Positions 7,380-54,830 of a stretch of DNA of 64,000 bases are shown here, one piece after another. The stretch comes from Hyphomicrobiales bacterium (lineage in GTDB: Bacteria > Pseudomonadota > Alphaproteobacteria > Rhizobiales > Xanthobacteraceae): assembly GCA_009377695.1 (NCBI GenBank), contig WHTP01000016.1, positions 1 to 64,000 on the forward strand, in the 5' to 3' direction. Position 1 is the stretch's first letter, and each line of letters opens with the position of its first letter. The notes beneath the pieces were generated by a model. That model was given only the letters and a program-made list of their open reading frames with translations. It was not told the origin of the DNA and did no database searches. The position numbers were made by a program, and so were the translations under genes.

Positions 7380-8771
7380 TCAAAGCCCGCGGCGGAAGGC
7401 CCGGTAGATCGAATTGTTGCGGACCGCCTCCCTGCCCGCCTCGATCAGAAAGTCGACGGACTGCTGAGGAAGATAGAAACGGGTCGGGATCGCATCGAGC
7501 GCCTCGGCGCGGGTTCGGTCAAACTGGTCGAAGCCGACGCGCTCGACAAAAACGTTGACATCGTCACAGCGCCAGTTGGGACCCACGCCCAGGCGCTGCC
7601 GTTCGGCGGCGGACAAGCCGCAGCGCCAGCGTCGAACTTTTCCCACCCACTCGTTCATGAGCGCGCCGAACGCGGCATAGCTTGCGCGCGTGTTCGCCTC
7701 GGTAGCCGTATCGGCTGTTGCCATCACGAGTTCGACACCGGTCGGTCCTGGGAGCTGCTGCGCCCAATTGCCGGATGGAGCGCGGCCGGAATCCACGATC
7801 AAAAAGAACATCCGCCGAATGCGCACGGCCTGTCGCGGCGTCATGGGCTCATACGGCCGCGTCGCTGAGAGCAACGCGATACTGAAGCCTGAAAGCCCGA
7901 AATTATCGACCAGGCCACCGTCCAGCAGCTTTACGTAGCGCATTGAGCCGGTGTGGTAGCTTTCGATCGCCTGTGCGAAGTCGCGCAACAAAGGTTGCGC
8001 ATTACGGTTGGCGCGTGCGCGCACGATCCAGTCCGGCAGCTTGGTCTGGCACCGGCCTGGAAAGGTTTCGAGGACGATCGGCGCGAACACCACCGGTACC
8101 GCGGCCGAGGCTGCAACCGCTTCCGAGATCGGATAGCTCAGCAGGTCGCTGCACATCGCGTCGAAGGCGACGCTCCCGAACACGAACGGTGTGCGGTTAT
8201 AGATGTCCGACGCATTGATCCAAATGCGCGGCCGCTGATCGCGCCGGAATTCGCGGAAGGTCGCGCCGCCGAACAGGTTCTCGTCGAGCCAGCGCGGCAG
8301 ATGCGTGGCGTCGTTCAAGCCGCCGCCGAGCGCGCGGCCGAGATTGATCAGGGAGACCCGAGTGTTGAGAGACTCCTCGGCGTTGCGCAGCAGGAAGCGT
8401 TCGCGGAAGTCGGCGAGCGCGTCGCGCCGGCGCAGGCCGTAATAGGCCGCAAGCACCGACCCGCCGGACACGCCAGACACGAAATCGACGCGGTCGAGCA
8501 GCGACACGGCCTTGCCGCGATCGCGGATGCGCATGGTGTCGAGCTCTTTGAGCACGCCGAAGGAGAAGGCCGCTGCGCGGGTGCCGCCGCCGGAGAAGGC
8601 GAGGCTCAACATGACGTCGTCGGAGTTGAGCGGCAGTTCACTGCCAAGCGATGCCGCCTGCACCGGCCCGGTCAGCGGTTGATTCTGCGGCACGTTGTAA
8701 ACGCTGGTGCAGCCGCTGAGTGCGACAACACCTATTGCAGCGACCAGCCGCCCCCACGCATGCATCGACAC
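7380..8771 (-). CDS. patatin-like phospholipase lipoprotein
   Basis: Lipobox LSGC; FSGGGTRAAAFSFGVL, GVSGGSVLAAYYG and LLDGGLVDNFG patatin motifs. Confidence 0.93.
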   Translation of the reverse strand: MSMHAWGRLVAAIGVVALSGCTSVYNVPQNQPLTGPVQAASLGSELPLNSDDVMLSLAFSGGGTRAAAFSFGVLKELDTMRIRDRGKAVSLLDRVDFVSGVSGGSVLAAYYGLRRRDALADFRERFLLRNAEESLNTRVSLINLGRALGGGLNDATHLPRWLDENLFGGATFREFRRDQRPRIWINASDIYNRTPFVFGSVAFDAMCSDLLSYPISEAVAASAAVPVVFAPIVLETFPGRCQTKLPDWIVRARANRNAQPLLRDFAQAIESYHTGSMRYVKLLDGGLVDNFGLSGFSIALLSATRPYEPMTPRQAVRIRRMFFLIVDSGRAPSGNWAQQLPGPTGVELVMATADTATEANTRASYAAFGALMNEWVGKVRRWRCGLSAAERQRLGVGPNWRCDDVNVFVERVGFDQFDRTRAEALDAIPTRFYLPQQSVDFLIEAGREAVRNNSIYRAFRRGL

Positions 8772-51607: not shown

Positions 51608-53341
51608 ATGAAGATCGCGAGCTTCAACATCAACAATGTGCGGCGCCGCCTGCCGAACCTCCTTGATTGGCTCAATCGCGCGAAGCCTGACGTCGCGTGC
51701 CTGCAGGAGCTGAAGTCCGCGGACGCCGAATTCCCGGCCGACGCGCTGCGGCAGATCGGCTACGAGGCGATCTGGCGCGGCGAGAAGACCTGGAACGGTG
51801 TTGCGATCCTCGCGCGCGGGGTCATGCCGGTGGTCACCCGCACCGAATTGCCGGGTGATCCGGATGACCGGCAAAGCCGCTACATCGAGGCTGCCGTCAA
51901 CGGCATACTGATCGCGTCGCTCTACGCGCCCAACGGCAACCCGCAGCCGGGACCAAAATTCGACTACAAGCTCGCCTGGTTCCGGCGCCTCACCCGTCAC
52001 GCAGCCACGCTCAACAAGGCGAGCATTCCGGTCGTGCTGGCGGGTGACTACAACGTCGTGCCGACCGCGCAGGATATCTACCCGACAACGTCCTACGACG
52101 ACGACGCGCTGCTGCAGCCGCAGAGCCGCGCTGCCTACAAGCGCCTTTTGGCGCAAGGCTGGATCGACGCCATCCGCGTGCTGCACCCGGACGCGCCGAT
52201 GTATACGTTCTGGGATTACAAGCGCAAACGCTGGGAGCGCGACGCCGGCATGCGCCTGGACCAGGTCCTTCTGACCCCCGACCTGCATGCGCGATTGGTC
52301 GACGCCGGGGTTGATCGGACCGAACGCGGCGAGGCGAACGCCAGCGATCACGTGCCGGTCTGGGTGGTGTTGCGCGACGCTGCCAGGCAGCGTGCGAAAC
52401 CGACGCGCGGAGCTAGCACTGCGCCGCAACCGCCTAAGCCTGCACCACGAGTTCAGCGAAGCAAGCCCGCCGCGACAGCAAAAGAACGCCGGCCACTGCT
52501 GGTGATCGACGGGGACTCATTCGCACACCGCGCGTATCACGCCCTGCCGAAAAACATCATGAGGGCTGGCCGCAAGTCCGCCGGCGCGATCCTCGGCTTT
52601 GCCAACTACCTTTTACGCTTCTACCAGACTGAACAGCCGCGCGCTGTCCTGGTGGGCTGGGACACGCTGACTGCCGAAACTTATCGGCACGAAAGTTTCC
52701 CGGATTACCAGGGCGGACGGGAATTTGACGACGCACTCATCGAACAGCTCGACATCCTGCCGACACTGGTCGCCGCCTGCGGCTTCGCGAACGCCAAGAA
52801 GGCGGGTTACGAAGCCGACGATTTCCTCGCCGCAGCGGCGGCGCGAGAGGAACGGCGCGGCGGCATCACGCTCGTCGCAAGCGGCGACCGCGACACGTTC
52901 CAGCTTGCGTCGGACGCTACGACGATCCTCTATCCGGTCCGCGCCGGCGAGATCGCGCGCATCACGCCGGCCGATGTGCGGACGCGCTACGGTGTTGACC
53001 CTGCACAGGTGCCGGATTTCATCGCGCTGCGCGGCGACCCTTCGGACCGGCTGCCGGGCGCGAAAAATGTCGGGGCGCAGGGTGCGGCCGATGTCCTGCG
53101 CCGGCATGGATCGCTGGAAGGCGCGCTCGCCGCCGGCCGCTTCGCGGCCCAGGCCAAAGAGCTGCGGCTCTACCGTTCGATCGCCACGATGGACCGCAAG
53201 GCGCCGCTGCCGCCCCTCCCCGATGAGACGCCAAGCTGGTCGAAAGCATCTGCGCTCGCGCGCACTTGGCAGCTCAACCAGCTCGCCGACCGCCTCGCAG
53301 CCATGTCGGAAGCCCAAAGCAGGCAGGCCGTGCGAGGCTGA
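51608..53341 (+). CDS. fusion protein: exonuclease III/AP endonuclease + 5'-3' (FEN-type) exonuclease
   Basis: N-half: MKIASFNINNVRRRLPNLLDWL, CLQELKS, NGVAILARG, GDYNVVPT, SDHVPVWV. C-half: LLVIDGDSFAHRAYHALP, YEADDFLAA, SGDRDTFQL, ALRGDPSDRLPGAKNVGAQGAADVL. Confidence 0.95.
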   Translation: MKIASFNINNVRRRLPNLLDWLNRAKPDVACLQELKSADAEFPADALRQIGYEAIWRGEKTWNGVAILARGVMPVVTRTELPGDPDDRQSRYIEAAVNGILIASLYAPNGNPQPGPKFDYKLAWFRRLTRHAATLNKASIPVVLAGDYNVVPTAQDIYPTTSYDDDALLQPQSRAAYKRLLAQGWIDAIRVLHPDAPMYTFWDYKRKRWERDAGMRLDQVLLTPDLHARLVDAGVDRTERGEANASDHVPVWVVLRDAARQRAKPTRGASTAPQPPKPAPRVQRSKPAATAKERRPLLVIDGDSFAHRAYHALPKNIMRAGRKSAGAILGFANYLLRFYQTEQPRAVLVGWDTLTAETYRHESFPDYQGGREFDDALIEQLDILPTLVAACGFANAKKAGYEADDFLAAAAAREERRGGITLVASGDRDTFQLASDATTILYPVRAGEIARITPADVRTRYGVDPAQVPDFIALRGDPSDRLPGAKNVGAQGAADVLRRHGSLEGALAAGRFAAQAKELRLYRSIATMDRKAPLPPLPDETPSWSKASALARTWQLNQLADRLAAMSEAQSRQAVRG

Positions 53342-54042: not shown

Positions 54043-54830
54043 ATGACGCACAACGGCGAAACGCCGCTCCAAGGCGGAGGCAGGACGGCGGTGGCGCGCC
54101 GCGGCGGCTTCGTTCTTCGCGAAACGGGTCCTTGGGCGCCTTCAGTGCACGCTCTGCTTCGCCACCTTGAACAGAAAGACTTCGCGGCAGCGCCCCGAGT
54201 CGTTGATGGTGGCTTGATGACCAGGGGCGCGAAGTTCTCACCTACATCGAAGGCGAGATCGTCAATCCGGCGCTCTGGTCTGACGAGGCGATTCACGAGC
54301 TCGCCGTGCTGATCCGACGGATGCACGATGCGACGAGTTCGTTCCAGCCGCCGCCGCATGCGCTCTGGCGTCCGTGGTTCGGCCGGGAGGTTGGCCGGCC
54401 CGACATCATCGGACACTGCGACGCGGCGCCTTGGAATATCGTGTCGCGCGACGGCATGCCGGTCGCCCTGATCGATTGGGAAGTCGCCGGTCCCGTCGAC
54501 CGGCTGACCGAAATCGCCATGACGGCATGGAACAACGCGCAGCTTTATGACGACGACGTCGCCGAGATGAACGGGCTGAAAGAGGCCTCGGCACGGATCC
54601 AGCAAGTTCGCGTCTTCGCGGATGGATATGGCTTGTCGGCCGAAGACCGGCGGCATCTGACCTATCGAATGATCGAATTTGCTGCGCACAGCGCAGCCAA
54701 TGAAGTGGCTGAGCAGCGGATCACACCGGAGACCGAATATGCGCCCCGTGTGTGGGGGATCGCCTGGCAGGCACGCAGCGTCGCCTGGCTCATGCGCAAT
54801 CGCTTGGCTCTGGAGGCAGCCCTGGCGTGA
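54043..54830 (+). pseudogene. aminoglycoside phosphotransferase (APH) family protein, frameshifted
   Basis: GGRTAVARRGGFVLRETGPWAPSVHALLRHLE then, after a shift near 54206-54215, WLDDQGREVLTYIEGEIVNPALWSDEAIHELAVLIRRMHDAT...IIGHCDAAPWNIVSRDGMPVALIDWEVAG. Confidence 0.85.

Follow-up and report, generated by a model that had tools for sequence, protein, structure and literature searches.

An ExoIII-type nuclease (XTH) and a PolA-type 5' nuclease (FEN) are encoded as one polypeptide in the window analysed here, a stretch of 64,000 nucleotides from a Hyphomicrobiales soil bacterium. Weighing its residues, its relatives and their genomic context, we lean towards the view that the product is a two-headed DNA-end processor, most likely serving Ku/LigD end joining (NHEJ). 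The features of the gene are collected in Table 1.

Table 1. Features of the fused gene and its product, in window coordinates
Feature	Residues	Positions	Strand	Remarks
xth-fen fusion gene	577 aa + stop	51608..53341	+	Single open frame; start MKIxxFN conserved in orthologues
ExoIII (XTH) domain	1-255	51608..52372	+	TIGR00633, TIGR00195, PF03372; nearest solved relatives NExo 2jc4/6fk4
N109, equivalent to NExo N108	109	51932..51934	+	Residue associated with 3'-phosphatase activity (PMC6294502); Asn in all 50 subfamily rows
L168, at the NExo H167 position	168	52109..52111	+	Gly or Ser at this site brings AP-site cleavage (PMC6294502); Leu in all 50 subfamily rows
Linker, Pro/Ala/Arg/Lys-rich	256-294	52373..52489	+	Disordered in model, fast-evolving
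5'-3' exonuclease/FEN catalytic domain, PF02739	297-462	52496..52993	+	Profile match, acidic residues
Q368 in YQxGR motif, at the catalytic Lys site (Taq K82 / T5 K83)	368	52709..52711	+	Gln in 89/89
H3TH / C-terminal FEN domain, PF01367	463-535	52994..53212	+	Profile match

The earlier note had read this stretch as one ORF carrying a complete ExoIII and a complete PolA-type 5' nuclease with a helix-3-turn-helix and no polymerase, and had proposed a domain search as a check; on each of these points the reading holds. The frame runs from an ATG at 51608 to a TGA at 53339-53341 with zero internal stops; alternative in-frame starts lie upstream of 51608 (ATG 51596 and GTG 51581), and the orthologues begin at MKI(A/T)(S/T)FN. 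The XTH domain scores 218.7 bits against TIGR00633 and 218.6 bits against TIGR00195, exceeding the curated ExoIII cut-offs of 99 and 182.6, respectively, and 85.5 bits against PF03372. The FEN half matches PF02739 with 125 bits and PF01367, the helix-3-turn-helix profile, with 47 bits, both above the gathering cut-offs. The NCBIfam pola profile aligns only over positions 1-226 of its 890 and stays below its cut-off, so that the polypeptide holds two nucleases and no polymerase domain by this profile. PolA of the window genome is a separate gene on a different contig, and two more ExoIII paralogues, of 41% and 34% identity, are found on other contigs. The linker of some 40 residues contains 9 Ala, 8 Arg, 7 Pro and 4 Lys. 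An AlphaFold model calculated from a 23-row alignment consists of two folded domains (mean pLDDT 83.6, pTM 0.53) joined by a segment, residues 260-292, that is disordered, with pLDDT < 50. At this pTM, the relative placement of the XTH and FEN domains carries no confidence; the input alignment is thin, and the XTH loops 152-168 and 200-215 are of low confidence. Comparison of the model with known structures using Foldseek relates the XTH half to NExo (TMt 0.90) and the FEN half to Mycobacterium FenA (TMt about 0.77). Elsewhere in the window, at 54043-54830 (+), a phosphotransferase gene (APH, PF01636) is split between two frames, 54043-54312 and 54306-54830, and is probably a frameshift or a pseudogene.

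Intact orthologues of the fusion are present in about ten genomes besides the window genome. Three of them share 82% (G001), 70% (G005) and 71% (G018) identity with the window protein; two others lie in single-contig genomes (G085 and G068), and the architecture recurs in the MAGs L041, L044, L051, L066 and L093. In a sample of 399 genomes from the GTDB family of the window organism, 16 carry this FEN subfamily, and among these the fusion is intact in the window genome, G001, G005, G018, G085 and G068, truncated at a contig end in G004 and frameshifted in G160. Frameshifted XTH-FEN genes, attributable to decay or assembly error, are also seen in an isolate of Methyloceanibacter marginalis (L110:3473-5249) and in a Hyphomicrobiales MAG (L067:8957-10816).

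Comparison of the window gene with that of G001 (given also as L004) yields dN/dS values of 0.094/0.763, or ~0.12, for XTH and 0.118/0.729, or ~0.16, for FEN, while the dN of the linker is 0.38, three to four times that of either domain. These values imply that XTH and FEN are both constrained and that the linker is not; judged by these substitution ratios, the two halves are under purifying selection. The window genome is a draft in 235 contigs, a state in which two genes might be united by faulty assembly. Such an artefact has a negligible probability here and we reject it: the identical fusion occurs in independent genomes, single-contig ones included, and coding selection acts on both halves. 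A missing stop or frameshift between the domains, the first of two objections anticipated in the earlier note, is excluded by ORFs of the same architecture in G001, G005, G018, G085, G068 and the MAGs; the second, that homologues might always be encoded as two separate genes, is answered by the intact fusions in about ten other genomes.

The best solved match to the XTH half, in both sequence and fold, is the Neisseria enzyme NExo (PDB 6fk4/6fk5/2jc4), with 36-37% identity in Foldseek. The expected ligands N7, N9, E34, D147, N149, D218, D247 and H248 are all present. The catalytic set N7, E34, Y106, D147, N149, D218 and H248 corresponds to NExo N7, E34, Y105, D146, N148, D217 and H247, and it is invariant across 50 subfamily rows, save that the H247 position is gapped in 2. 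NExo differs in being a single domain without a FEN, and in having a histidine, His167, where the XTH half has leucine. This member of the ExoIII family acts as a 3'-phosphatase and has no AP-endonuclease activity; its H167 blocks the AP site and its N108 supports the phosphatase reaction (PMC6294502). The fused XTH shares the asparagine (N109); at the second position, the bulky Leu168 is neither the histidine of NExo nor the Gly or Ser of an AP endonuclease. Within the window genome, the paralogue on contig C130 is AP-endonuclease-like, with Ala at the N108 and Ser at the H167 position, and the canonical-type paralogue on contig C2 has Asn and Leu.

In its specificity residues, the XTH half is closer to NExo than to the AP endonucleases, which suggests that it is a 3'-end cleaner. 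The invariant Leu, the retained NExo Asn and the separate AP-endonuclease-like paralogue make AP endonuclease the less likely main activity. The earlier proposal of a 3'-end/AP processing nuclease stands as regards the ExoIII catalytic residues, which are intact, and is weakened as regards AP cleavage, since Leu168 is not Gly/Ser.

These residues bear also on the chief rival to the NHEJ reading, long-patch BER, in which XTH would incise AP sites or clear 3' blocks, strand displacement would fall to Pol I or another polymerase, and FEN would remove the resulting flap. The classical partnership of ExoIII and FEN in BER, together with the fully intact XTH catalytic residues, speaks for this role. 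The leucine at the AP-site position argues against it, as does the fact that Pol I already has a FEN domain of its own. We hold long-patch BER to be rather unlikely, on these grounds and on those of gene neighbourhood considered below.

The FEN half has the PF02739+PF01367 fold of the PolA 5' nuclease domain and of mycobacterial FenA, and shares with them nine metal-binding acidic residues. These Cat1/Cat2 residues, D301, D352, E402, D404, D405, D427, D429, D477 and D480, are near-invariant in 89 members of the FEN subfamily. It differs from PolA and FenA in standing without a polymerase and in the substitution, throughout the subfamily, of Gln for the catalytic Lys. At the position equivalent to Q368, Lys is found in 14 of 14 PolA-like relatives as well as in Taq, Msm Pol I and FenA. 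The statement that both halves keep their metal ligands is thus upheld for every acidic ligand named, while the catalytic Lys of the FEN half has become Gln. This lysine (T5 K83 / Taq K82) has been reported to be conserved in all prokaryotic FENs, and its replacement by Ala strongly reduces the activity of ExoIX and T5 FEN (PMC3783174). An invariant Gln set against Lys elsewhere defines a distinct FEN subfamily, and the substitution could mean weak FEN catalysis.

Carried further, the loss of a lysine whose mutation weakens ExoIX and T5 FEN (PMC3783174) might mean that the FEN has reduced catalysis and serves as an arm for structure-specific DNA binding, placing XTH on flaps or gaps. The Bauldia relatives described below, in which the partner of the FEN is a ligase domain without its active-site Lys, would be in keeping with this. 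The nine acidic residues, essentially invariant in the 89 members, point instead to retained metal catalysis, and we consider a reduced FEN improbable.

In being a second, polymerase-free bacterial FEN, the FEN half resembles E. coli ExoIX (Xni). ExoIX is without the Cat2 aspartates and has the Lys (PMC3783174), whereas the fusion FEN has D429, D477 and D480 and has lost the Lys. E. coli and B. subtilis are viable only if they retain the polA FEN domain or xni (PMC3783174). This requirement, and the similarity of the FEN half to the PolA/FenA 5' nucleases, would suit a backup nuclease of the ExoIX or FenA type, acting in Okazaki-fragment maturation or gap processing, with XTH adding 3' or RNase H-type trimming. 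Such a role has little likelihood in our estimation: the patchy distribution, in 16 of 399 family genomes, argues against a housekeeping function, and the invariant K-to-Q change and the links to NHEJ also speak against it.

A survey of domain order across 80 loci bearing the FEN subfamily revealed that the two nucleases are also joined the other way round. Four intact FEN-XTH genes were found, in Acetobacteraceae (L056), a lichen Rhizobiales (L068), Methylobacteriaceae (L076) and Enterovirga (L085); in a fifth, from Rhodospirillales (L075), the frame shifts within the linker. In the FEN tree, the XTH-FEN proteins are clustered, with standalone FENs nested within, and FEN-XTH appears at two other places. 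Trees in which all fusions form a single clade are rejected, with p-AU 0.0098 for the FEN half and 0.0385 for the XTH half, so that there have been at least two separate fusions. A single origin is not rejected for XTH-FEN alone (p-AU 0.58) or, on the FEN tree, for FEN-XTH alone (p-AU 0.72); in the XTH tree, starred branches divide FEN-XTH into at least two groups. Fissions or losses are likely to have occurred in addition. On this phylogenetic evidence, the fusion of XTH and FEN is recurrent and convergent. Convergent fusion in either order argues strongly that a single pathway couples the cleaning of 3' ends to the removal of 5' flaps, and indifference to order, together with a variable linker, suits a plain tether better than a rigid assembly. 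Strict co-dependence of the two nucleases was considered and discarded, as standalone FEN occurs both with and without the subfamily XTH.

The connection with NHEJ comes from the relatives of the two halves. Linkage or fusion to Ku/LigD is seen for relatives of each half and not for the window gene itself; whether in the window or at the fused loci retrieved, the fused gene has neither ku nor ligD beside it. On the XTH side, Sinorhizobium medicae (CP140910.1, L186:2825-8774) has a run of five genes, ligD-ku-TPR-alpha/beta-hydrolase-xth, of which xth is the last. The same run recurs in eight genomes from Devosia, Rhizobiaceae and related organisms (L188-L194 and L197, the last cut by a contig end); as eight Rhizobiales operons with one shared arrangement, these are few independent events. 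The xth genes of these operons are the closest free-standing relatives of the fusion XTH. We know of no role in NHEJ for the TPR and alpha/beta hydrolase genes, which merit study. Of 26 subfamily XTHs, 11 have Ku and/or a LigD-type ligase within the stretch retrieved, which reaches up to about 10 kb on each side; none of 20 canonical ExoIII paralogues does (Fisher p=0.001). The comparison draws on many related genomes and about four distinct arrangements.

Direct fusions extend the connection. In a Xanthobacteraceae MAG (JAIESI, L201:5067-7949, minus strand), a single ORF of 961 aa has the order XTH-LIG-POL and is divergent from ku at 7924-8718. Both LigD domains, ligase and polymerase, score above cut-off, with an intact KxDG motif. 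A PE domain was not detected in the ORF, and XTH occupies the position usual for PE in LigD. For the XTH of the fusion we propose a 3'-end healing role analogous to that of PE, to which it is not homologous as far as tested (the fusion gives no PE match). The swap suggests that different nucleases can substitute for one another in the 3' healing of NHEJ. On the FEN side, two Bauldia loci (L070:930-2543 and L111:4526-6187, both on the plus strand) have the subfamily FEN fused behind a LigD-type adenylation domain. This domain has lost the motif-I active-site Lys, reading EILFEG as against EIKFDG, and the product is a pseudo-ligase-nuclease.

Ku was found in 59 of 59 FEN-bearing genomes tested, compared with 49 of 150 in the order, the kinship of the genomes from the named loci not being given. 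In the window's GTDB family, the background is already 167 of 200 and the FEN-bearing genomes score 16 of 16 (p=0.08); with Ku so common there, co-occurrence within the family is uninformative. The window genome itself has Ku and a LigD that keeps a PE-like N-terminus in addition to LIG and POL.

A LigD-like neighbour does not by itself imply NHEJ, given that in mycobacteria a complex of the LigD-like LigC acts with ExoIII/XthA in BER (PMC5663958). One subfamily XTH, in L035, indeed lies near a stand-alone LigC-like ligase with Ku absent from the stretch, which favours long-patch BER. The strongest neighbourhoods, on the other hand, include Ku itself, and this tells against it.

LigD has a PE domain for the conversion of 3' blocks and nothing for 5' tails. 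In the NHEJ reading that we prefer, the N-terminal NExo-like ExoIII would clean blocked 3' ends, removing 3'-phosphate or phosphoglycolate and performing short 3' exonuclease trimming, and the C-terminal FEN would cut 5' flaps or displaced 5' ends on the other strand after annealing or fill-in; the flexible linker would let both heads work one break. Ku would bind and the ends align, blocked 3' termini would be turned into 3'-OH ends, 5' tails left unpaired or displaced would be removed, and the LigD polymerase and ligase would then act. XTH would thus supply or supplement the 3'-healing function of LigD PE, and FEN the 5' trimming that LigD is missing. We infer the activities, the substrate preference and, in the window organism, where the genes are unlinked, the action with Ku/LigD. 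The 'self-contained' repair enzyme of the earlier note is probably wrong, because genomic context links relatives of both halves to Ku/LigD; the fusion is more likely to serve a ligase-polymerase complex. More tentatively, it may be a nuclease dedicated to end trimming in NHEJ, in which a healer of 3' ends resembling NExo was joined to a Lys-to-Gln FEN in at least two independent fusions of opposite order, and an instance of a modular, swappable nuclease arm beyond Ku/LigD, the same XTH replacing LigD PE and the same FEN being tied to a pseudo-ligase.

To our knowledge, the usual account of bacterial NHEJ has Ku and LigD as its components and no dedicated 5'-flap nuclease. If the fusion acts in NHEJ, it would fill this gap and provide a testable accessory module. 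The invariant Lys-to-Gln subfamily likewise tests the role assumed for that lysine. In the part of the open-access literature available, we found no description of an ExoIII-FEN fusion or of ExoIII in a ligD-ku operon, and in a large NHEJ survey exonucleases are nowhere mentioned; ExoMeg1 is unrelated. Both halves belong to known families; their union in one protein, its convergent origin, the link with NHEJ and the FEN subfamily with Gln in place of Lys appear, within the same body of literature, to be undescribed. The earlier note did not regard the architecture as standard, and it is unusual in this sense, but it is recurrent in both domain orders and not a one-off.

The FEN subfamily ranges over Alphaproteobacteria and Actinomycetota (Gaiellaceae/Thermoleophilia). 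It was not found on plasmids at E<=1e-60, and its identification as a phage or defence gene was rejected, PADLOC giving no hit and PHROGs generic nuclease families only. Apart from XTH, no conserved FEN neighbours are evident in Alphaproteobacteria, and recurring neighbours are found mainly at the actinobacterial loci. The FENs in long actinobacterial ORFs have no additional Pfam domain, and these ORFs are therefore probably over-read frames in GC-rich DNA. At the actinomycetotal loci L074-L118, standalone FENs lie in a recurring chromosomal neighbourhood with a probable sigma-factor (rpoD-like) gene.
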